The notes: a model not told the origin generated them from the sequence alone. A stretch of 64,000 nucleotides of DNA from Akkermansiaceae bacterium (GCA_903919975.1 CAIXKE010000066.1:81479-145478), one strand, 5' to 3'. Positions 2,452-22,117 are shown, counted from the stretch's first letter. A program made the numbers and translations.

Positions 2452-5400
2452 TCAAGGTTTGCTGAAAACCTCGTTTTCCTTGCTCCACAATTCCGCACAT
2501 TCGTAAACCGGCTTCCAATGATCCATGCCGATGGTCCAGATCATTTTGAGCGGTGGCTTGATGGTGATATCATCGATCTTTTGCTTGAGCCCTTCCACAT
2601 CAACGGGCCCCACGACTTCGCCTTTAAAGACATAATACCATTCGCCGACCCGGCCTTCGGCGACTGGAATCGGAAGTCCCATGGCAGCGGCATTGAAACG
2701 TTGCGCACGGGCGGCGGCGCGCTCGGCGATCATCGCTTTGGTTTCCTCCTCAGCTCTTGCCTCGGCTTCCTCTTCCTTCTTGACCTTGATTTTTTCCTCC
2801 TCCGCCCATGCTTTGGCTTCTTCTTCCCTCCTGATTCTGCCTTCTTCAGCAGCTTGGGTCTGTTCGTCGCGAGCTTTGGTAGGCGCAGAGTCTTCGGCTT
2901 GGGGAGCGACTCCCAGCGATGCCCTCTCCTCCACGGCACCTATGACCTTGGTGGTCTCTTCGGCTATAACACGGATCAACGCGGCCTCGGATTCAGCCTC
3001 CTTGCGGGCGTTTTCCGTCGCTATCTTCAATTCTTCGCGGGCTTTGGCCCGGATGGCCGCCAATTCCTGCTCGGTGTTTTGGCGTGCTTGTTCGATGGCG
3101 GATTTGAGTTCCTCCTGAGCCTGGGCCCGCATGGCGGCAAGTTCGGCGATCGCCTCTTGGCGCGCCTGCTCTGCGGCGGCGGCCTGTGCGGCGGCGACTT
3201 TCGCCTGTTCCTCGGCGAGCTGTTTGGTCGCGAGGATGGAGCGCTCTTCCTGTTCGGCCCGTTGTTTGGCCAAAGCCAGGGCCTTGGCCTCCTCCTCGAC
3301 GTGGGCTTTCGCTGTCGCAGCGGCATTGGCATGGGCAGCGGCCTCCATTCGTGCTTGGTCCGCAGCAGCGGCCGCGGCTTTGGCATCTTCTTCGGCTTTA
3401 GCACGGATGGCCGCCAATTCCTGTTCGGAATTGTGGCGTGCTTGTTCGATAGCAGCCTTGAGTTCCACTTGGGCTTTTGCGCGGATGGCGGCTACTTCAG
3501 CCGTCGCCTCTTGGCGCGCCTGCTCAGCAGCGGCTTGGGCGGCGGCAGCACGTTCTTCCTCCTCGGCACGTGCTTTCACGGCGGCAACGGCTTCAGCTTG
3601 GGCGGCGGCCTCCAGACGGGCCTTCTCCGCCGCCCGCACATCCTCCTCGGCTCTAATACGGATGGATGCGGCTTCGGCCTCCGCTTCCTTGCGGGCATTT
3701 TCCGCCGCAGTCTTCGCCTCTTCGCGGGCATTGGCCCGGATGGCCGCTAATTCCAGTTCCGTATTGTGATGGGCTTGTTCGATGGCGGCCTTGAGTTCCT
3801 CTTGGGCTTTTGCGCGGATGGCGGCAAGTTCGGCAGTCGCCTCCTGGCGTGCCCGCTCGGCTGCTGCTTGTGACGCGGCTGCATGTTCTGCGGCGGCTTT
3901 TGCCTGCTCCTCGGCGATCCGTTTGGCCGCGGCGGCGGCGCGCTCTTGCTGCTCGATCCGCTGTTTGGCCAAAGCGAGCGCTCTAGCGTCCTCCTCGGCA
4001 TGTGCTTTCACCGCGGCAGCAGCTTCTGCCTGGGCGGCGGCCTCCATTCGTGCTTGCCCCGCAGCAGCGGCCGCAGCTTTGACCTCCACCTCGGCTTTGG
4101 CGCGGATGGATGCGGCCTCAGATTCCGCCTCTTCGCTGGCCTTGGCACGGATTGCCGCTAATTCCTGATCGGTATTTCGGCGTGCTTGTTCGATAGCGGC
4201 CTTGAGTTCCTCTTGGGCTTTTGCGCGTATAGAGGCAACTTCAGCCGTCGCCTCATGACGCGCCTGCTCGATCAACGACTTGGCGCTTTGCTCCGCCTCG
4301 GCAGATAGAAAAGCAGACTTTGCCTCGGCTTCGAGGCGTGCTTTTTCGACAATATCCCGCGCTTTTTTTTCGGCTTCGACTTTTTCGGCTTCGGCTTTTT
4401 CCGCCGCAGCTTGAGCGGCGGCAGCGTGTTCCGCAGCGGTTTTGGCCTGCTCTTCGGCGAGTTGTTTGGACGCGGCGGCGGCTCGTTCTTCCTCCTCGGT
4501 CCGCTGTTTGGCCTGCGCCATAGCCTTGGTTTCCTTCTCGGCATGGGCTTTCGCGGCAGCGGCAGCTTCGGCCTGAGCAGCGGCTTCCAGACGGGTATTC
4601 TCCGCCGCGGCGGTCGCCGACCGGGCATACTCCTCGGCTTTGGCACGGATCAGAGAGGCCTCGGACTCCGCCTCCTTACGGGCGCTATCCGCCGCTGCCT
4701 CCGCATCTTCGCTAGCCTTGGCCCGGATTGCCGCTAATTCCTGATCGGTATTTCGGCGTGCTTGTTCGATGGCAGCCTTGAGTTCTTCTTGGGCTTTTGC
4801 GCGGATGGCGGCAACTTCAGCCGTCGCCTCATGACGCGCCTGCTCGATCAACGACTTGGCGCTTTGCTCCGCCTCGGCAGATAGGGCGTCCGCCTTCGCT
4901 TCAGCCTCGAGGCGTGCTTTTTCGACAATATCCCGCGCTTTTTTTTCGGCTTCGACTTTTTCGGCTTCGGCTTTTTCGGCTTCGGCTTTTTCGGCTTCGG
5001 CTTTTTCCGCCGCAGCTTGAGCGGCGGCAGCGTGTTCCGCAGCGGATTTGGCCTGCTCTTCGGCGAGTTGTTTGGACGCGGCGGCGGCTCGTTCTTCCTC
5101 CTCGGTCCGCTGTTTGGCCTGCGCCATAGCCTTGGTTTCCTTCTCGGCATGGGCTTTCGCCGCCGCGGCAGCTTCGGCCTGAGCGGCGGCTTCCAGACGG
5201 GCATTCTCCGCCGCGGCGGTCGCCGCCCGGGCATACTCCTCGGCTTTGGCACGGATCAGAGCGGCCTCGGACTCCGCCTCCTTGCGGGCGCTATCCGCCG
5301 CTGCCTCCGCCTCTTCGCTGGCCTTGGCCCGGATTGCAGCCATTTCCTGTTCGGTCTTGTAGCGTGCCTGTTCGATGGCGGCCTTGAGTTCCTCTTGGGC

Positions 5401-7734
5401 TTTGGCGCGGATGGCGGCAACTTCGGCTGTCGCCTCTTGGCGTGCCTTTTCCGCAGCGGCAGCCTGTTCCTCAGCGGCTCTGGCATACTCCTCGGCGAGC
5501 CGCTTGGCGGCGGCGACGGCACGCTCTTCCTCCTCGGTCCGTTGCTTGGCCAGAGCAAATGCCTTGGCCTCCTCCTCAGCGCGGACTTTTGCGGCGGCGG
5601 CAGCTTTGGCTTCCTCTTCGGCGCGGGCTATTGCAGCTGCAGCGGCTTTGGCTAATTCTTCGGCACGATGGAGCGTCGCCTCTGCTTTGAGTCGTTCCTC
5701 GGCTTCCAACTGCTGGGCCTTGATTCGCTTGGTTTCTTCTTCGAGTCGTTTCCTTTCCTCCTCCGCCTTCGCTTCCTCCTCCGCACGTTGTCTGGAGATC
5801 TCGGCAGCCTTGGCTTTTTTCTCCTCCTCCGCACGATCTCTCGCCGCAGCTTCTTCGGCGGCTTTGATAGCAGCTTCTTCGGCGGCCTTTACCGCGGCTT
5901 CCGCAGCAACCTCTGCGGCTGCTTTCGCGGCAGCTTCTGCCGCAGCTTTCTCGGTGGCTTCTACCGCAGGTTTAACTGGGCTGACCTTCGGGGGGGCCGA
6001 CGGAATCAGGATTTTTCTGACTCCCGGTTTCGGAGTGACTGCCGCTGGCGGCGCTTCAGTCAGTGGCTGGCCATCTATGTTAACGGCGTCCTCTTCCACA
6101 AGTTTCGCAGCTGGGATCTCAGCGGCTCCAGCCACAGATTGAACCGGACTAACCTTCACGGTCGCTGCCGGAAAGAGAATCCTTTTGATTCCCGGTTTCG
6201 GGATGGTTGCTGCCAGCGTTGCGGACCGCTGCGGTCCGTTTGTCATGACGGCAGATTCTTCCGCAGCTGGAGTCTCTTCGACTTTAACTGCAGTTTGAAC
6301 CGAACTGACCTTCACCGGCGCTGCGGGGAAAAGGATTTGTTTGATTCCCGGTTTCGGAGTGACTGCTGCTGACGGCCTTTCGGGCTGTGGCGGCACAATT
6401 GCCTTGGCGGCGGGTTTGGCATCCTGGCCACCAGAAGCCCCATAAGTGGAGTCGAAGCGGCGGTATTTCAGAGCGACGCGGTCCGCAGGGATTGTGACGG
6501 CGGGTGGTGGGGTAATCTTGGCGTCCTTTTTCGCGAACTGCTGATAAAGATCGTTATGGAGTTCCTCCCCTTTGACCTGCTTGAGCGTAGAAACCACGAT
6601 GGGGGGCATCTGAAAATCAGTCCCGAGGCCTTCCATAGGGTCGATCGAAGGCCATGGCAGGTCTCCTAGAGAAGGACGTAGCTCCTTAAAATTCCCCCAC
6701 AGAAATCGCGCGTCGTCCGTCCACAGAATGAAGTGTTCAAGGTCGGGATTGACCAGATTAGGATCTGCCTCAAGGGCCGCGCCGTAGAAGCGTGCCGATT
6801 GCAGAACCATGCCGTGGTGTAGGAGGGCATTGGCCAAGCCCATGTTTTGCACAGCCTTTCCGCGGTTTTGTTCAAGAACCGCAGTGAGCAGGCGGATGGC
6901 CTTCCGAGGTTGGTCCCTGGCAAGGATCCGGGCGGCAAACGCAAGGTCGAGGTCGATGCTTGGTATCGGGTCAGACTCCCAGATAAGGGCGGCGGCTTCA
7001 CGGTATTCACCGTGATCGTAGAGCATGTGAGTCAACTGCTGGCGCGTATCCCAGTCGCCTGAATTTGCCGCCAGCTTTTGGCGCAGGACCTCGCTGCCGG
7101 CAAGCAGCTGATCGCGGGAGACGCCTAGGGCTGCCCCAGAGGCTGAAGATGGAGAGAGAGGCATCACGCCATCGATCGGCTTGAGCTTGGGAACCGCGAT
7201 GGGAGTGGTATGTTGGCTAACGCGGCTGGTGAGCGAGAGAGCTTCCCTCGAATCGCGCGTCATCCATGGCAGTTCGCCGAGTTGCGGACTATGGCCCTTC
7301 AAGCCTCCCCACATCGATTGTTCGTCGTCGCTCCAGAGCATGAAATGTTCCAGCTCAGGACTGACGAGTTGCGGATTGGTTTCAAGGGCCGCGCCGTAGA
7401 AGCGTGCCGATTGCAGAACCATGCCGTTGTAAAGGAGAGCGTTGGCCATTCCCATGTTTTGCTCGGCCTTGTCGCGGTTTTGTTCGAGAACCCCAGTAAG
7501 CAAGCGGATGGCCTTACGGGGCTGGTCTTTAGCAAGGATCCGGGCAGCTGATGCGAGGTCGAGGTCTGTGGCCGGAATTTCGTTCGCCTCCCAGATGAGC
7601 GCGGAGGCTTTATGGAGAGTTCCCTGATCGTAAAGCAAGCACGCCACCTGATGGCGTGCATCCCAATCCGCTGGGTTGGCTTTCAATCTCTCGCGTAGAG
7701 GTTTTTCTTCGATGAGGTTTAGTTCGGGACTCAC
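2452..7734 (-). CDS. Giant Ala/Glu/Lys-rich coiled-coil protein with TPR-like repeats and C-terminal GYF_2 domain
   Basis: The product is 1760 aa with a GTG start at 7734; the first folded repeat begins immediately, and no better start is visible. Residues about 1-145 and 205-350 are two related TPR-like repeats that share blocks such as ARDQPRKAIRLLT and SARFYGAALE. Three linkers beginning PKPG[IV] follow, each with an 'ILFPAA'-type motif. Residues about 600-1690 form a continuous Ala/Glu/Lys coiled coil of the TolA type. The last 60 residues (EWYYVFKGEVVGPVDVEGL..) match the GYF_2/DUF4339 fold. There is no signal peptide or membrane segment, so a cytoplasmic scaffold is the simplest reading. 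The rod contains a tandem duplication of about 576 bp and 15-bp repeats encoding AEAEK. The role is unknown. The opposite strand carries long false ORFs caused by the biased composition. Confidence 0.8.
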   Translation of the reverse strand: MSPELNLIEEKPLRERLKANPADWDARHQVACLLYDQGTLHKASALIWEANEIPATDLDLASAARILAKDQPRKAIRLLTGVLEQNRDKAEQNMGMANALLYNGMVLQSARFYGAALETNPQLVSPELEHFMLWSDDEQSMWGGLKGHSPQLGELPWMTRDSREALSLTSRVSQHTTPIAVPKLKPIDGVMPLSPSSASGAALGVSRDQLLAGSEVLRQKLAANSGDWDTRQQLTHMLYDHGEYREAAALIWESDPIPSIDLDLAFAARILARDQPRKAIRLLTAVLEQNRGKAVQNMGLANALLHHGMVLQSARFYGAALEADPNLVNPDLEHFILWTDDARFLWGNFKELRPSLGDLPWPSIDPMEGLGTDFQMPPIVVSTLKQVKGEELHNDLYQQFAKKDAKITPPPAVTIPADRVALKYRRFDSTYGASGGQDAKPAAKAIVPPQPERPSAAVTPKPGIKQILFPAAPVKVSSVQTAVKVEETPAAEESAVMTNGPQRSATLAATIPKPGIKRILFPAATVKVSPVQSVAGAAEIPAAKLVEEDAVNIDGQPLTEAPPAAVTPKPGVRKILIPSAPPKVSPVKPAVEATEKAAAEAAAKAAAEVAAEAAVKAAEEAAIKAAEEAAARDRAEEEKKAKAAEISRQRAEEEAKAEEERKRLEEETKRIKAQQLEAEERLKAEATLHRAEELAKAAAAAIARAEEEAKAAAAAKVRAEEEAKAFALAKQRTEEEERAVAAAKRLAEEYARAAEEQAAAAEKARQEATAEVAAIRAKAQEELKAAIEQARYKTEQEMAAIRAKASEEAEAAADSARKEAESEAALIRAKAEEYARAATAAAENARLEAAAQAEAAAAAKAHAEKETKAMAQAKQRTEEEERAAAASKQLAEEQAKSAAEHAAAAQAAAEKAEAEKAEAEKAEAEKVEAEKKARDIVEKARLEAEAKADALSAEAEQSAKSLIEQARHEATAEVAAIRAKAQEELKAAIEQARRNTDQELAAIRAKASEDAEAAADSARKEAESEASLIRAKAEEYARSATAAAENTRLEAAAQAEAAAAAKAHAEKETKAMAQAKQRTEEEERAAAASKQLAEEQAKTAAEHAAAAQAAAEKAEAEKVEAEKKARDIVEKARLEAEAKSAFLSAEAEQSAKSLIEQARHEATAEVASIRAKAQEELKAAIEQARRNTDQELAAIRAKASEEAESEAASIRAKAEVEVKAAAAAAGQARMEAAAQAEAAAAVKAHAEEDARALALAKQRIEQQERAAAAAKRIAEEQAKAAAEHAAASQAAAERARQEATAELAAIRAKAQEELKAAIEQAHHNTELELAAIRANAREEAKTAAENARKEAEAEAASIRIRAEEDVRAAEKARLEAAAQAEAVAAVKARAEEEERAAAAQAAAEQARQEATAEVAAIRAKAQVELKAAIEQARHNSEQELAAIRAKAEEDAKAAAAAADQARMEAAAHANAAATAKAHVEEEAKALALAKQRAEQEERSILATKQLAEEQAKVAAAQAAAAEQARQEAIAELAAMRAQAQEELKSAIEQARQNTEQELAAIRAKAREELKIATENARKEAESEAALIRVIAEETTKVIGAVEERASLGVAPQAEDSAPTKARDEQTQAAEEGRIRREEEAKAWAEEEKIKVKKEEEAEARAEEETKAMIAERAAARAQRFNAAAMGLPIPVAEGRVGEWYYVFKGEVVGPVDVEGLKQKIDDITIKPPLKMIWTIGMDHWKPVYECAELWSKENEVFSKP
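4120..5335. repeat. Tandem duplication, period about 576 bp, inside the giant coiled-coil gene
   Basis: Two consecutive copies are nearly identical over long runs. For example, CTGATCGGTATTTCGGCG occurs at 4165 and again at 4741, exactly 192 codons apart, so the frame is kept. The second copy has extra 15-bp units (CTTTTTCGGCTTCGG on the plus strand, encoding AEAEK), which makes this a likely length-variable region. A third, more diverged copy follows near 5353. Confidence 0.8.
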
Positions 7735-14349: not shown

Positions 14350-17211
14350 ATGAATGGTTTCATCAAATCTCTCCTCTCACTGCTGATCTTCACCGGATTC
14401 AGCACCGGTTTGTCACAAGCCCAAACCACTGGCAGCGTCAGTCTCACGGCCACACTCAGCGACACCGGCAGCGGACCCGATCACTGGACCGTCGTTTGGG
14501 TGACCAACGCAACAACCGGTGCCTACGTGCGCACCCTCCGTAAGCAGTCGAACGAATCCCGTGGCAGTCATTGGAACCAACATTGCGGCTCTTGGTATAC
14601 CGCCGCGAGCTTGGCAACCAGCGCGACAAATTTCAGCCCGGCCCTCGATGGATTCACTGGCGCGACGGCCACCACCTACAGCACTCCCAACAGCCCATTC
14701 ACCCAGACATGGAATTGCAAGGACGCCGCCGGAACGACGGTCCCCGATGGAACCTACCGTTTGTGGATCCAATATGCCGAGGATGCCAGTGGCCAAGGTC
14801 CGGTGACGACCGGAGGCTTATTGTGGACCAAAGGCCCAGCCGCCAGCACGGTCAATCCTACCAACCAAGGGACCAACTTCACCAATATGTCGATTGTCTG
14901 GACTCCGTCCGGTGTCTCCACCGCTCCGGAAATCGCCGTGGAACAACCCGTCGGAACCAATATCGCCGATGCCGGATCGAAGGCTTTCGGCTCGGTCGTC
15001 GTCGGCTCAAATTCGCCGCTGACCTTCACCATCCGCAACACGGGAAATGCGAACCTGACCGGACTGGCCATCACCAAAGACGGCACCCATGCCGCTGATT
15101 TCACCGTCTCCAGCAACCCGGTCGCCCCGGTGGCCGGACCAAGCGGCACCACGACCTTCATCGTGACCTTCGCGCCCTCCGCTATCGGCACGCGAAGCGC
15201 CGCCATCCACATCGCCAACAACGACAGCGACGAAGCTCCTTTCGACATCAATCTAACCGGATCGGGAACAGCCGGCATAGAGCCCCCCTCAATCATCACC
15301 CATCCGGCGTCCCCCGGCATTGTCAGTGGCCAAACCGCAATCTTGAGCGCCGTGGCAACGGGAAGCTCTCCGCTCTATCAGTGGTATCGCGGAATATCCG
15401 GCGATACGGCTTCTCCGATTTCCGGCGCCAACGGGTCATCCTTCACCACGCCGGCCTTGACGGCCGCCGCCACTTACTGGGTGCGCGCTTCCAATGTTGC
15501 GGGTGTCGCGGATTCCAATACCGCTTCGGTCAGCATTTCCAGTTATCTGCTCACAACTAGCGCCGTCCATGGGACGCTCACTGGTGCCGGTGTCTATGGC
15601 GTGACAACGCAGGCAACCTTGAGCGCGACCCCCGATACGGGATATGTCTTCAGCGGTTGGACCGGCGATGCTTCCGGCACCACGAATCCACTGACCGTGC
15701 TGATGGATTCCAATAAGAACATCGGAGCCACCTTCTCCCTGGATTCGGCCAATCCCACCGATCCGTTCGTGATTTGTTTTGTGGGTGCCTTGTTCGAGCC
15801 CCGGGTTGGCAACCAGATCACGCTGGACCTAAAACGGCTCACGGGAGCGGGCGAGACCGTTAAACTAACCAGCAAACTCCCAGCCGGCCTTTCCTATAAA
15901 TCGACCACAGGTTTGATATCCGGAGCCATCACCGCCAAACCCGGAACCTATCGGGTGGTCGTCCGAATCCTCCAAGGCAACACGGTGGTGAGAACGATCG
16001 ACCTGCCGATTATGGTGCTTTCCTTCCCAGACTCTCTTGCGGGTAACTACGAAGGCATCATCGAGAATACGACTGGCGTGCCCACAGGGGTATTCCGGAT
16101 CTCGATCACATCCACCAACCGCTGGACAGCCACGTTGGAATCCGTGAACACCAAAAAACGCACGGCCAAGGGTGTGTGCAGCCTCGCACCCGGACTTCCG
16201 GTGGCGCAGGTTTCCGCCGTCTTCCCTCGTTCGTCCGGCGCACCCGCTGTAACCGTCGCGCTTGCGATCAATGGAGAAGCCCCTAACTTTATCGGCACCT
16301 CCGCGATCGGCACACTGCGTGGATTCCGCCTCTCCTCCACGTCTGATTTTCTCCCATCCACCGTGGCTTCCAATCTGGTGTTTGATGCCGGAATTCAGGA
16401 CGGCATCTCTGTCCCCGCCGGATTCGGTTGGATGAAAGGAAATGTGAACCGCTCCGGATCAGGATCGTTCAGCGGCATGCTGGGCGACGGGTATCCCATT
16501 AGAATTTCCCTCCACCTCTCCTCCACAGGCCAAGCCATCCTTTGGGCCCAACCCTACTCGAACAAACAGTCTTTCATCGGAGGAATCGTCTCACTCGGCA
16601 ATCTGGGCCAAGCTCGGAGCACCCATGAAAAAATCACCGAAACCCTATGGTGGTCGAAAGCCGCCGATGCCAAGACCCAAAGCTATCCGAATGGCTTCCC
16701 CGCCATGCCGATTAGCCTGGGGACCAGCAAATGGATCGTGCCATCCACTGCCGTGGAGCTGGGCGCTTCCCTCGGCTGGCGCGACAATCGCACCGCTTCG
16801 GTTACCATCGAGGGCGCGGGTTTTGAAAACCAGAACCCCCAATCCCCCTTCGTGCTTCCACAGGAGTTCAAGATGGACGATACATTCAACCTCCAAACTT
16901 CCCTTTCAAGCTCCGGAGATGGTGGCGATGATGACAGCGATGATGACGACAATGACGGCCGCTATAATAACAAGAGTTCACTATTTCAAGTATGGAGCGG
17001 CAAGGTCTCCAGAACCGACGGTTCCTTCACCGGCACCATCAAAATCCCCGCCGGGGCGGCGGATGGAATCGCCGGAGGTAATGCCGCAGTCAGCGGCGTT
17101 TTGGCTCAAGACGAGTCATGGGGAGTAGTGACCGGTTGCGGTCTTGTCAAGGTGCCCATTGTCGGCGGAAAAAATCTATTCAGAACTGCTGCAATCATTC
17201 TCGAACAGTGA
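14350..17211 (+). CDS. Secreted multidomain protein: DUF2271-like domain, HYDIN-like, Ig-like and InlB-type repeats
   Basis: The product (953 aa) has a signal peptide (SLLSLLIFTGFSTGLSQA). Residues about 27-190 look like DUF2271 (WTVVWVTNATTGAYVRTLR .. W .. VPDGTYRLWIQYAED). Inside it DGFTGATAT (residues 100-108) fits the D-x2-[ST]-[GS]-A-[TS]-x-[ST] pattern to which ApbE attaches FMN; Thr106 would be the acceptor. Next come a choice-of-anchor-D/HYDIN-like domain (about 195-300), an Ig-like domain (about 313-398) and an InlB/Flg_new-type repeat (GYVFSGWTGDASGTTNPLTV). A long C-terminal part with an Asp-rich loop (GDDDSDDDDNDG) follows. apbE lies 52 bp downstream, which supports a flavoprotein role. 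The redox partner is unknown. Confidence 0.75.
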   Translation: MNGFIKSLLSLLIFTGFSTGLSQAQTTGSVSLTATLSDTGSGPDHWTVVWVTNATTGAYVRTLRKQSNESRGSHWNQHCGSWYTAASLATSATNFSPALDGFTGATATTYSTPNSPFTQTWNCKDAAGTTVPDGTYRLWIQYAEDASGQGPVTTGGLLWTKGPAASTVNPTNQGTNFTNMSIVWTPSGVSTAPEIAVEQPVGTNIADAGSKAFGSVVVGSNSPLTFTIRNTGNANLTGLAITKDGTHAADFTVSSNPVAPVAGPSGTTTFIVTFAPSAIGTRSAAIHIANNDSDEAPFDINLTGSGTAGIEPPSIITHPASPGIVSGQTAILSAVATGSSPLYQWYRGISGDTASPISGANGSSFTTPALTAAATYWVRASNVAGVADSNTASVSISSYLLTTSAVHGTLTGAGVYGVTTQATLSATPDTGYVFSGWTGDASGTTNPLTVLMDSNKNIGATFSLDSANPTDPFVICFVGALFEPRVGNQITLDLKRLTGAGETVKLTSKLPAGLSYKSTTGLISGAITAKPGTYRVVVRILQGNTVVRTIDLPIMVLSFPDSLAGNYEGIIENTTGVPTGVFRISITSTNRWTATLESVNTKKRTAKGVCSLAPGLPVAQVSAVFPRSSGAPAVTVALAINGEAPNFIGTSAIGTLRGFRLSSTSDFLPSTVASNLVFDAGIQDGISVPAGFGWMKGNVNRSGSGSFSGMLGDGYPIRISLHLSSTGQAILWAQPYSNKQSFIGGIVSLGNLGQARSTHEKITETLWWSKAADAKTQSYPNGFPAMPISLGTSKWIVPSTAVELGASLGWRDNRTASVTIEGAGFENQNPQSPFVLPQEFKMDDTFNLQTSLSSSGDGGDDDSDDDDNDGRYNNKSSLFQVWSGKVSRTDGSFTGTIKIPAGAADGIAGGNAAVSGVLAQDESWGVVTGCGLVKVPIVGGKNLFRTAAIILEQ
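14647..14673 (+). other. Candidate ApbE flavinylation motif (DGFTGATAT)
   Basis: The codons encode Asp-Gly-Phe-Thr-Gly-Ala-Thr-Ala-Thr, which agrees with the FMN-attachment motif of NqrC/RnfG-type proteins. The downstream neighbour is an ApbE transferase. Covalent FMN at Thr106 is an inference from motif and context. Confidence 0.55.
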
Positions 17212-17263
17212 TCTTTCCCGCAAGAGGGATTACCATACCATTGCCAAAATTCGACCCATCCCC

Positions 17264-18325
17264 ATGTTCTGGAACCCCACAATATTCACCTGCCTGCTAG
17301 CCGGAATCGCCGCAGGCGATCCTATACCGCAGCCATCCCATTCCATCGTGGAATGGCAGGGCCGCACCATGGGCAGTCCCTATGCGGTCAAAATCGTGGA
17401 TAGCGGCCTAACAGATAATAATCTACCAGCGATCAAGTTAGAGATCGAACAAACACTCATCGAAGTCAACCGCCAGATGTCCAATTACCAACCGGACAGC
17501 GAACTCTCGCGCTTCAACCGCGCAACAGCCGATGTTCCGTTCAAGGTATCCCCGGAGTTCGCAAAGGTCGCTCGCTTCGCGCTGGAAATCAGCCGGTTTT
17601 CAGAAGGCGCGTTTGATCCGACGCTTGGGCCACTGATCAATCTCTGGGGATTCGGCGAGAAAACCGGCAATCATGTGGTGCCCGATGAAAACACCCTCCG
17701 CTCCACCATGGCCAAGATCGGTTGGAAGCATTTGAAAATCAGCGACGCAAACGAGTTAATCAAAGACGCCCCGGAGATCGCCCTTGATCTGGGAGGTGTG
17801 GCCAAGGGCTACGGAGTGGATCGGATGATCGAGATCTTGCGCGCCCATGGATTTAAAAACCTCTACGCCTCCATCGCAGGTGAGGTAAGGGTGATCGGAC
17901 ACAATCCGCATGGCACCAAGTGGATGTTAGGGGTCAGCGTGCCCGTTGATCACTGGCGCAATGACAACCCCATGGCCGCGATGGTTTCCATTTCCAACCA
18001 AGCGCTCTCAACTTCCGGGGACTACCAGAAGTTTTTCATCGATTCATCGGGCCGCAGACTTTGCCACATCATCGACCCCCGCACCGGTTCTCCGGTGAGC
18101 CACGACCTCGCCAGCGTCACGATCGTCGGCCCGGACAGCATGACTGCGGATGGCCTATCCACCTCACTTTTCGTGCTCGGTCTCGTGGAAGGTATGAAAA
18201 AAATCGAGTCACGCCAGGATTCAGCCGCCCTGTTCATTCTCCGCGAAAAGGACGGCTCATTCAGGCAATTGGCCAGCTCCAGATTTGAGAAACTCACTGG
18301 ATACCAGCCCCCACCCGACAAATGA
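17264..18325 (+). CDS. apbE: FAD:protein FMN transferase ApbE
   Basis: The product (353 aa) transfers FMN from FAD to a Thr/Ser of an exported target protein. I chose the ATG at 17264 because it opens a signal peptide (FWNPTIFTCLLAGIAAG); the ORF-track start at 17144 overlaps the previous gene. Family blocks are intact: GRTMGSPYAVKI, DPTLGPLINLWGFG, LDLGGVAKGYGVDRM, HIIDPRTGSPV (metal/FAD site) and ADGLSTSLFVLG. The gene follows the DUF2271-like protein by 52 bp, so that protein is the obvious substrate candidate. cysJ begins about 200 bp further on. Confidence 0.92.
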   Translation: MFWNPTIFTCLLAGIAAGDPIPQPSHSIVEWQGRTMGSPYAVKIVDSGLTDNNLPAIKLEIEQTLIEVNRQMSNYQPDSELSRFNRATADVPFKVSPEFAKVARFALEISRFSEGAFDPTLGPLINLWGFGEKTGNHVVPDENTLRSTMAKIGWKHLKISDANELIKDAPEIALDLGGVAKGYGVDRMIEILRAHGFKNLYASIAGEVRVIGHNPHGTKWMLGVSVPVDHWRNDNPMAAMVSISNQALSTSGDYQKFFIDSSGRRLCHIIDPRTGSPVSHDLASVTIVGPDSMTADGLSTSLFVLGLVEGMKKIESRQDSAALFILREKDGSFRQLASSRFEKLTGYQPPPDK

Positions 18326-18524: not shown

Positions 18525-20291
18525 ATGCTTCCAGAGCACGCTCCATTCAATTCTGACCAGCGCCAAGCGCTGAATTCCCTCATTTCCAGCCTCGATCCCC
18601 TCCAGCGCGGATGGCTCAGCGGCTTTTTGGCCAGTGCCGCTCCCGCTGCAGCCGCTTCAGCCCCTGTTTCAGCAGGAAAACTCACCGTGCTCTACGGCAC
18701 CGAATCTGGAAACTCAGAATCCCTTGCCGATCGCGCCGTGAAGGAAGCGAAAAAACGCGGCTTCAAAGCGGTCATGAAAAACATGAGCGATCTCGCTCCA
18801 ACCGAACTCGCAAAGGTTTCCAACCTGCTGGTGATCGTTTCCACCTGGGGCGATGGCGATCCACCCGAGACCGCCACCCCCTTTTACAAGGAATTCATGG
18901 CCTCCGCGACTTCGCTCAACAGCGTCCGCTTCTCCGTCTGCGCGCTCGGCGATACTTCCTACGAAAAATTCTGCCAAACCGGCAAAGACATCGACGCCCA
19001 CTTGGAAAAACTCGGCGCCCAACGCGTCACCGACCGACAAGATTGCGATGTGGATTACGAGGATGCATTTACGGCATGGCTTTCCCACTCGCTCAGCGCA
19101 CTCGCTCCCGCTTCATCGTCCACCGCAGCGGTCACCCAACCCGCCGCCCCGACGAGCACCACCGTTGAATACGGCAAAAAAAATCCGTTTCCTGCCGAGT
19201 TGCTCGATGTCGTGCAACTCAACGGAGAAGGCTCAACCAAGGAAACCCTCCACCTCGAACTATCCCTCGCCGGTTCCGGCCTATCCTACGAACCTGGCGA
19301 CGCGCTCGCCGTCATGCCCGTCAACGCACCGGACATGGTCCAAGCCGTGCTCGATGCCGCCAAACTCACCGGCAATGAAGAGATCGAAACCAAAACCGCC
19401 GGCCGCAAACGCTTGGCAGATGCCTTGCGCGAGGATTTCGACATCACCGCCCTCTCCCGCAACGTCCTCACCAAACTTGCCGACATCACCCAAACCCGAA
19501 CGCTGCAATCCCTGCTCGCCGATGACGCGAAAGACCAACTCCGGGAATTCGTCAACGGTCGGGAAATCATCGACGCCCTCCTCCAGTTCGCTCCCACCGG
19601 CCTCGCCCCCGATGCCTTATCCAGCATCTTCCGGAAACTCCCGCCCCGCTTGTATTCGATCGCATCGAGCCCACTCGCCCACCCCGATGAAGTCCACCTC
19701 ACAGTAGCCGCCGTCCGTTACCAATCCCACGGCCGCGCTCGCAAGGGCGTCTGCTCGACATTCCTCGCGGATCTCATGAAACCCGGTGATCTCTTCCCGG
19801 TATTCGTCCAACCCAATAAAAACTTCCGCCTCCCGGAAAACCCCGCAACCCCCATCATCATGGTCGGCCCCGGCACCGGCATCGCTCCGTTCCGCGCCTT
19901 CGTCGAACACCGCGCTGCCACCGGTACCACCGGAAAAAATTGGCTGTTCATGGGAGATCAACATTACCTTTACGATTTCCTCTATCAACTCGAATGGCAG
20001 GAACACCTCAAATCCGGCGCTCTCACCCGCCTCGACGTCGCCTTCTCACGCGACCAACCGGAGAAAATTTACGTCCAACAATGCATGGCCGAACGCGGCG
20101 CGGACCTCTATGCCTGGCTCGAACAAGGCGCTCATTTCTACGTCTGCGGCGATGCCAAACGCATGGCCGCCGATGTCCATGAAACTCTAATTTCCATCAT
20201 CGAAAAACACGGCTCCAAATCCCGAGAAACCGCCGAATCCTACCTCGAAGACCTCAAAAAATCCAAACGCTACCAACGCGATGTGTATTGA
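18525..20291 (+). CDS. cysJ: Assimilatory sulfite reductase flavoprotein subunit
   Basis: The product (588 aa) passes electrons from NADPH through FAD and FMN to the CysI hemoprotein. I start it at the ATG at 18525, which has AAGG 4-7 bases upstream; the 80 extra residues of the longer ORF look non-coding. A flavodoxin domain (VLYGTESGNSESLAD, STWGDGDPPETA, ALGDTSYEKFC) precedes an FAD-binding domain (LPPRLYSIASSP, GVCSTFLAD) and an NAD(P)-binding domain (IIMVGPGTGIAPFRAF). The C-terminus YLEDLKKSKRYQRDVY is typical of CysJ. It is followed by cysI, cysH and cysK in one direction. An inverted repeat (GATTGC..GCAATC, 18453-18472) lies in the leader. Confidence 0.95.
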   Translation: MLPEHAPFNSDQRQALNSLISSLDPLQRGWLSGFLASAAPAAAASAPVSAGKLTVLYGTESGNSESLADRAVKEAKKRGFKAVMKNMSDLAPTELAKVSNLLVIVSTWGDGDPPETATPFYKEFMASATSLNSVRFSVCALGDTSYEKFCQTGKDIDAHLEKLGAQRVTDRQDCDVDYEDAFTAWLSHSLSALAPASSSTAAVTQPAAPTSTTVEYGKKNPFPAELLDVVQLNGEGSTKETLHLELSLAGSGLSYEPGDALAVMPVNAPDMVQAVLDAAKLTGNEEIETKTAGRKRLADALREDFDITALSRNVLTKLADITQTRTLQSLLADDAKDQLREFVNGREIIDALLQFAPTGLAPDALSSIFRKLPPRLYSIASSPLAHPDEVHLTVAAVRYQSHGRARKGVCSTFLADLMKPGDLFPVFVQPNKNFRLPENPATPIIMVGPGTGIAPFRAFVEHRAATGTTGKNWLFMGDQHYLYDFLYQLEWQEHLKSGALTRLDVAFSRDQPEKIYVQQCMAERGADLYAWLEQGAHFYVCGDAKRMAADVHETLISIIEKHGSKSRETAESYLEDLKKSKRYQRDVY

Positions 20292-20392
20292 GTGCCGAGT
20301 GATCAGTGATCAGAAAATATTACTCACTGCCCACTGCCCACTGCCCACTGCCCACTGCCCACTGCCCACTGCTCACTTCCCCACCTATCCCC
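20292..20392 (+). repeat. cysJ-cysI spacer with heptamer array
   Basis: Directly after the cysJ stop comes GTGCCGAGTGATCAGTGATCAG, then a run of CACTGCC heptamers (about 20323-20377) ending in TGCTCAC, then the pyrimidine-rich CTTCCCCACCTATCCCC before the cysI ATG. The first word is the reverse complement of the TGATCAC heptamer used elsewhere in the window, so the two halves can partly pair. The same 22-base start word recurs at 45631. Confidence 0.85.
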
Positions 20393-22117
20393 ATGTCCGA
20401 AGAAAAGAAACTCTCCGCCAACGAATACATCAAAATTGATAGCAATTACCTCCGTGGAACCATTCAGGAAGGCCTTGCCGATCTATCCACCGGATCTATG
20501 TCCGCGGATGATCAACAATTACTCAAATTCCACGGCACCTATCAACAGGATGATCGCGATCTTCGCGCCGACCGCCGCAAGCACAAGCTTGAGAAAGCCT
20601 ACTCTTTCATGATCCGCATCCGCGTGCCCGGAGGCGTAGCCACCCCGGCCCAATGGCTGGAAACCGACCGCCTCGCCACGCAATTCGCCAATCACACGAT
20701 CAAGCTCACCACCCGCCAAGCCTTCCAGTTTCACGGCATCATCAAGAGCAACCTCAAGCGCACCATCAAGGAGATCAACCAGTGCGCCATGGACACCATC
20801 GCCGCATGCGGTGATGTGAACCGCAACGTGATGTGCAACCCGAACCCTTACCTCTCCGAGATCCACGCCAAGGTTCTCAAAGTCGCCCAAGGCATCTCCG
20901 ACCACCTCACGCCGCAAACCCGCGCCTACCATGAAATCTGGCTCGATGGCGAAAAAGTCGAAAGCTCCGAGGAGGAGGTCGAGCCGATCTACGGCAAAAC
21001 CTATCTCCCCCGCAAATTCAAAATCACCATCGCCGTCCCACCTTCTAACGATGTCGATATCTACGCCAACTGCCTTTCTTTCATCGCCATCGTCGAAAAT
21101 GGCAGCCTAGTCGGATTCAACGTCGCCGTCGGCGGCGGCATGGGCTCAAGCCACAACAACGAAAAAACCTATCCACGCATCGCCGATGTCATCGGCTTCT
21201 GCACCGTCGATCAAGTGGTTGATGTCGCGGAAAAAACCGTGCTCGTCCAACGTGACTTCGGTGATCGCACCGACCGCAAACACTCACGTTTCAAATACAC
21301 CGTCGATGACCACGGCCCCGCATGGATCCTTGCCAAAATCAACGAATACCTCGGCTATGAGCTCGGCCTGGTCCGCCCCTTCGCCTTCGAGGACAATGGC
21401 GACCGCTTCGGCTGGGTGGATGATGCCAATGGCAACTCCCACCTCACCCTGTTCATCCAAGGCGGACGCGTGCTCGATACACCCGCCTATCCACTTCTAA
21501 CCGGCTTGCGCGAAATCGCCAAAATCCACGACGGCGATTTCCGCCTCACTGCCAACCAGAACCTCATCATCGCCAACATCTCTCCCGCCAAGCGCCCGGA
21601 AATCGAGAAATTGTTGAAACAATACGGAATCAAAGACAGCCACCTCAAAAGCGCCCTGCGCCTGAATTCACTCGCCTGCGTCGCACTCCCCACCTGCGGA
21701 CTCTCACTCGCCGAAGCCGAGCGCTACCTCCCGGACCTGCTCACCGAACTGGAAGAAGTCATCGAGGAAAACGGCCTCCGCCATGACGCCATCACCATCC
21801 GCATGACCGGCTGCCCGAATGGCTGCGCGCGTCCCTACATCGCAGAGATCGGCTTCGTCGGCCGCGCCCCCGGAAAATACAACGTCTATCTCGGCGGTGG
21901 ATTCGCCGGCCAACGCCTCTCCAAACTCTATCGCGAAAGCGTGCCCGACACCGAAATCAAATCCCTGCTCGCCCCCATCATCTCCCGCTACGCCAAGGAA
22001 CGTGAAAATGGCGAACGCTTCGGCGATTTCTGCATCCGGACCGGCTACGTCGCCGCCACCATCCAAGGCGGCGATTTTCACCAGAACATCAAGCCGGAAG
22101 CTCTGAAGAAAGCCTGA
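20393..22117 (+). CDS. cysI: Assimilatory sulfite reductase hemoprotein subunit
   Basis: The product (574 aa) reduces sulfite to sulfide using a coupled siroheme and 4Fe-4S centre. The ATG at 20393 ([14 protein letters not shown]) is the right start; the longer ORF merely translates the heptamer repeats upstream. The cluster ligands are visible in [19 protein letters not shown] and [11 protein letters not shown]. The repeated sulfite/nitrite reductase ferredoxin-like halves ([13 protein letters not shown] and [13 protein letters not shown]) are present. The length is usual for CysI. It sits between cysJ and cysH, 10 bp before the latter. Confidence 0.95.

Follow-up and report, generated by a model that had tools for sequence, protein, structure and literature searches.

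A candidate flavinylated DUF2271-like protein on a modular, probably exported scaffold, paired with ApbE, in Verrucomicrobiota

The window analysed here, a 64,000-nucleotide stretch on one contig (C66) of a 3.8 Mb verrucomicrobial genome (G000), encodes a protein of 953 amino acids that is very probably exported and flavinylated on Thr106 by the adjoining ApbE, its FMN domain serving as a redox carrier on a modular scaffold. In the mechanism we propose, the N-terminal DUF2271-like domain of the exported protein would be covalently flavinylated on Thr106, the ApbE encoded 52 bp downstream would transfer FMN from FAD outside the cytosol, and the FMN domain would act as a one-flavin redox carrier borne on the tip of a chain of beta-sandwich modules, which may hold it in the periplasm or on the outer cell surface. 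The domain, the motif and its conservation, the conserved gene pair and a complete ApbE, catalytic triad included, are all read from sequence, and from these we infer FMN attachment, the redox role, the location and the electron partners, none of which is encoded close to the pair.

The DUF2271 of Amantichitinum ursilacus is flavinylated by its cognate ApbE, and a T-to-A exchange abolishes flavinylation (PMC8238504). Since DUF2271 has already been shown to be an ApbE substrate, the window case appears as known DUF2271/ApbE biology in a new setting; the reaction has been demonstrated for the family and is predicted for the 953-aa protein. No study devoted to flavinylation in Verrucomicrobiota turned up in a full-text search of the literature. 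The flavinylation reading had been put forward in an earlier note on this DNA, and it is favoured by the DUF2271-like domain, the motif at the DUF2271 site, the conservation of that motif, the adjoining apbE and the matching clustering of the ApbE proteins.

The probably exported protein and its N-terminal domain

Re-reading of the coordinates bore out the 953-aa ORF and the distance of 52 bp to apbE (gap 17212-17263) given in the earlier note. The N-terminus, MNGFIKSLLSLLIFTGFSTGLSQA, is hydrophobic and was judged by eye to be an export signal. The features of the pair and its downstream neighbours are as follows.

14350..17211, + strand: predicted exported multidomain DUF2271-like protein, 953 aa (ORF from ATG, stop codon included; Pfam/NCBIfam families)
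14350..14421, + strand: predicted Sec signal peptide, MNGFIKSLLSLLIFTGFSTGLSQA (by eye from the sequence)
14419..14910, + strand: DUF2271-like beta-sandwich domain, residues 24-187 (PF10029, homologues, AlphaFold model)
14647..14667, + strand: ApbE motif D100-G-F-T-G-A-T106 (D, G, A and T unchanged across the ten close domains)
14665-14667, + strand: Thr106, predicted FMN acceptor (position in the motif, DGFTGATAT at residues 100-108)
14953..15267, + strand: choice-of-anchor D / ASH-type beta-sandwich domain (NF012200, 66.4 bits)
15310..15534, + strand: Ig_7-like domain, residues 321-395 (PF19081, 35.5 bits, above cut-off)
15547..15741, + strand: divergent InlB B-repeat-like domain (Flg_new_2), residues 400-464 (PF18998, 50.2 bits, above cut-off)
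15742..17208, + strand: C-terminal region of ~490 aa, residues 465-953, without family match
16915..16962, + strand: Asp-rich loop GDGGDDDSDDDDNDGR, residues 856-871 (read from the sequence)
17264..18325, + strand: apbE, FAD:protein FMN transferase, 353 aa, short hydrophobic N-terminus (PF02424, 285.9 bits)
18525..20291, + strand: cysJ-like sulfite reductase flavoprotein, judged to lie outside the system (TIGR01931, 688 bits)
20390-22117: sulfite reductase hemoprotein, after the cysJ-like gene (PF01077/PF03460)

The 'adhesive-type modules' suggested previously are present as choice-of-anchor D (residues 202-295; 66.4 bits against an NCBIfam cut-off of 45), Ig_7 and Flg_new_2/InlB-like domains, each above its cut-off, and the Asp-rich stretch, GDGGDDDSDDDDNDGR, was likewise found at residues 856-871. 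A search of residues 465-953 against Pfam and NCBIfam returned no family match, and no anchor or sorting signal was recognised in the protein; residues 343-753 share 28% identity with a protein encoded elsewhere in the genome, on contig C48. As annotated, the build is unusual, with DUF2271, choice-of-anchor D, Ig and InlB-like modules followed by a 490-aa C-terminus without family match. Elsewhere in the window, 2452-7734 on the minus strand encodes a protein of 1760 aa that is rich in Ala and Glu, resembles a coiled coil and contains long internal repeats.

In profile searches the window domain matched PF10029 over residues 38-152 (E 3e-5) at 24.2 bits, just under the cut-off of 27.3 bits; sister proteins with the same site (loci L016, L018 and L020) exceeded it with 34.8, 32.4 and 30.0 bits, and the motif fell at the family's position. 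A PF10029 search over the whole window genome found nothing, the window protein included, because its score is below threshold. DGFTGAT aligns with DG.[ST][GS]AT of a hydrogenase-linked branch described below (probability 99.9%) and also with DGVSGPT of canonical verrucomicrobial DUF2271, the latter with a weak profile score; in hhalign of the close group against the canonical proteins the motif was aligned at a probability of 7% (E 0.005), both profiles being shallow. We treat the window domain, on these sequence comparisons, as a divergent DUF2271. The canonical verrucomicrobial DUF2271 proteins (L067-L077) themselves carry DG[VL][ST][GS]PT, with Pro at the Ala of the ApbE consensus.

DUF2271 is a domain of ~135 aa, often found in PepSY-like clusters, and Amantichitinum ursilacus WP_053936890.1 is an example of such a substrate with a cognate ApbE (PMC8238504). 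The window protein has in common with this type a predicted extracytosolic domain, D-x-x-[ST]-x-A-T at the same place and a cognate apbE in the cluster. However, it differs in that the domain, scoring just under the Pfam cut-off, stands at the head of a 953-aa chain built from Ig-like modules, in a genome without PepSY_TM. With the multi-flavinylated FMN_bind proteins (PMC8238504, PMC11334425) it shares large size, predicted export and ApbE sites on modular scaffolds, but those proteins are built on FMN_bind, whereas the window protein has its site in DUF2271. The number of DUF2271 copies per chain is one in the window protein, two in G172, two in G570 and three in G588. The multi-copy proteins, at L167:2961-5834 (G588), L163:5451-10085 (G570) and L015:6488-10567 (G172), have a flavinylation-like motif in each of their 3, 2 and 2 copies and form a counterpart of the multi-flavinylated FMN_bind proteins; the G588 protein (L167) also scores as FMN_bind.

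The apbE gene and the pair across genomes

The window ApbE matches PF02424 over its full length (1-266 of 266, 285.9 bits). Its segments TSGDY...HIIDPRTG...TADGLST match the reported Ser-His-Asp triad, which in Vibrio cholerae ApbE is Ser241-His257-Asp285 (PMC12052999), and the His-to-Asp spacing of 28 equals that between His257 and Asp285 of Vc_ApbE.

When 195 genomes of the family were searched, the domain was found in one other, G172, which belongs to the same genus as the window and encodes a 1359-aa protein with two domain copies (DGYTSAT and DGFTGAT); apbE begins 21 nt beyond its gene. When GTDB contigs were scanned with the three domains, they gave eight loci, one of which (L017) is the G172 contig, so that the close set comprises nine distinct loci, the window and eight others (L015/L017, L016 and L018-L023). 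In the window and seven of the other eight (L015/L017, L018, L019, L020, L021, L022 and L023), apbE directly follows the domain gene on the same strand with a gap of -4 to +60 nt; at L016 the domain and motif are present with no apbE adjoining. The grouping of the adjoining ApbEs mirrors that of the proteins they flank, e.g., those of the window, L015 and L022 group together in the ApbE tree and the substrates of these three also have choice-of-anchor D. An all-against-all comparison of the genes around the close-group pairs found no conserved third gene. All 18 domain-bearing genomes tested contain apbE, a count that is weak by itself because apbE is common.

The window genome has two further ApbE matches, one of them partial and separated by about 100 bp from another likely substrate, an FMN_bind domain. 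This second apbE has an FMN_bind domain of its own beside it, which leaves the window apbE for the DUF2271 protein. At that place (L064:7444-8198, contig C3) the partial ApbE, of 206 aa (profile positions 120-249), lies in another frame than the FMN_bind domain, and the two make a second candidate flavinylation pair, possibly frameshifted. DUF2271 proteins without an adjoining apbE were also seen beside a phosphoglycerate kinase-like gene, at L016:5842-6702, L059:9162-9704 and L060:9010-9507.

Electron partners and a hydrogenase-linked sister branch

PepSY_TM is a frequent partner of DUF2271 (PMC8238504). Compared with the PepSY-like flavinylation system, DUF2271 and ApbE are present but PepSY_TM is absent, there being no PF03929 match in the window's genome, and no membrane electron donor was seen near the window pair. 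Directly upstream of the pair in G172 lie genes for a FixO/cytochrome c protein and for a protein with weak similarity to COX1, a single case that hints at a tie to respiration.

Searching the whole phylum with the domain profile revealed a second branch, of proteins of 1390-1990 aa with DUF2271, CARDB and LVIVD repeats (in G552 the protein has 722 aa, the chain being split into two genes). At 13 loci in 12 genomes, the genes for a [NiFe]-hydrogenase small subunit, the large subunit and the DUF2271/CARDB/LVIVD giant follow one another on one strand, with a maturation protease usually detectable between the last two. These loci are L046 (G431), L047 and L048 (both G342), L049 (G279), L050 (G304), L051 (G357), L052 (G284, with two giants in tandem), L054 (G390), L056 (G298), L163 (G570), L164 (G633), L165 (G560) and L166 (G552). 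In five of the 13 (L046, L049, L050, L056 and L165) apbE directly follows the giant. The giants keep the Asp, Ala and acceptor Thr of the motif, the site being DGTTSAT at L049 and DGVSSAT at L165. The sister-branch large subunit has its nearest counterparts in the periplasmic [NiFeSe] hydrogenases of Desulfovibrio, best matching 5jsu (E 3e-125), and with the Desulfovibrio periplasmic [NiFeSe]/[NiFe] hydrogenases these operons share a small subunit with a Tat-like RRDFLK start and an adjoining maturation protease. In contrast to the Desulfovibrio [NiFeSe] enzyme, the verrucomicrobial large subunit ends in DPCLDC, with Cys; and unlike in Desulfovibrio, no cytochrome c gene (C-x-x-C-H protein) was seen in the nine hydrogenase-giant loci scanned, while the giant with the flavinylation motif stands directly downstream. 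The hydrogenase link is limited to one clade, because more distant hydrogenases of the same type (L127-L133) are without the giant. At L127:8951-10906 (G401) the hydrogenase operon is followed by a 651-aa protein that resembles the C-terminal part of the giant and is without the DUF2271 domain.

Gene order and motif together suggest a flavinylated hydrogenase partner, in which the giant would be an FMN-bearing protein accepting electrons from H2 oxidation outside the cytosol. A broader proposal is tentative, and we put it slightly below an even chance: that the flavinylated giant is the dedicated electron acceptor of a periplasmic [NiFe]-hydrogenase, replacing the usual cytochrome, in part of the Verrucomicrobiota, and that the window pair represents a hydrogenase-free branch of this domain family. 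In the literature searched, no report of the pairing of hydrogenase and DUF2271 giant was found; papers that mention hydrogenase together with DUF2271 or with LVIVD were judged unrelated. The hydrogenase branch, which lies outside the window, is the more novel of the two.

It is possible that the window protein is flavinylated as proposed while its FMN takes no part in electron transfer to a respiratory partner, the flavin either sensing redox state or remaining passive within a matrix protein of adhesive function. Ig-like modules make up most of the chain, no conserved redox partner gene stands beside the close-group pairs, and the window's genome has neither PepSY_TM nor a related hydrogenase (a search for the sister-branch large subunit in G000 gave no match). 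We nevertheless hold this to be unlikely, since electron transfer is the role of characterised ApbE substrates (PMC8238504, PMC11334425), the sister branch of the domain is found in hydrogenase operons, and FixO/cytochrome c genes lie directly upstream in G172.

Conservation of the flavinylation site

The sequence DGFTGATAT, said in the earlier note to match the ApbE target consensus, was confirmed at residues 100-108 with Thr106 as the predicted acceptor. Its core DGFTGAT is the single copy of D-x-x-[ST]-G-A-[ST] in the 953-aa protein, and no other copy occurs in the open frames of at least 100 codons in the window. When the protein was shuffled 20,000 times, the full motif appeared in 2.5% of cases and the bare [ST]GA[ST] in 44%, which makes the motif taken alone weak evidence for flavinylation; the case depends chiefly on where it lies in the domain and on its conservation. 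Across the alignment of ten close domains, Asp, Gly, Ala and the acceptor Thr do not vary, at 49-59% identity to the window domain. The residue at the second glycine varies, being G in three, S in six and T in one; most close relatives have DGY[ST][ST]AT and fall outside the strict [ST]GA[ST] consensus. A Gly-to-Ala exchange at the motif glycine is reported to lower flavinylation to about 50% (PMC12052999). These departures count against the flavinylation reading, as do the sub-threshold PF10029 score of the window protein, the absence of PepSY_TM and of a nearby membrane electron donor, and the locus L016. A motif not conserved in homologues beside apbE had been named as a finding that would speak against flavinylation; the motif is kept, and apbE adjoins it in seven of the eight other loci.

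The domain could instead be nothing more than an Ig module of FlgD type within a surface scaffold, with a motif that is structural or due to chance (as the frequency of the bare motif in shuffles would allow) and an apbE that serves another substrate. FlgD_ig is indeed a weak Pfam match in the 953-aa protein, and a domain-profile sequence search of solved structures gave a weak FlgD match alone (3osv, E 0.009). The AlphaFold2 model of the domain, from a ten-row alignment, is a beta-sandwich (pLDDT 82.6, pTM 0.82) in which the motif occupies model residues 77-83, a lower-confidence loop region ahead of strand 94-98 (ten-residue confidence means from residue 61: 67, 54, 57 and 85). Foldseek of this model against the PDB gave no match below E 0.001, and FlgD entries and one unrelated beta-sandwich head the list, though not significantly. 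However, the D, G, A and T of the motif are invariant although the close domains differ from that of the window at 40-50% of sites, apbE directly follows in seven of the eight other close loci, and the FMN_bind domain of the genome adjoins another apbE; a purely structural module is accordingly improbable.

Least probable is a functional tie of the pair to the downstream sulfite reductase genes, the flavoprotein feeding electrons to sulfur reduction, and we dropped it: cysJ does start ~200 bp after the pair in the same orientation, and sulfite reductase hemoprotein, cysH-like and cysK-like genes come after it, but it encodes a cytosolic NADPH flavoprotein of assimilation, against two predicted exported proteins of the pair, and related loci showed no recognisable cys genes next to the pair.

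Flavinylation of the 953-aa protein by its adjoining ApbE would take ApbE substrates in Verrucomicrobiota beyond small periplasmic domains, to large exported proteins of modular build. Natural sites with S or T for the motif glycine (DGYTSAT, DGYSTAT) are kept beside apbE, and this bears on the prediction of ApbE targets. For the sister branch the testable prediction is that, in part of the phylum, H2 oxidation would feed covalent flavins in place of haems.
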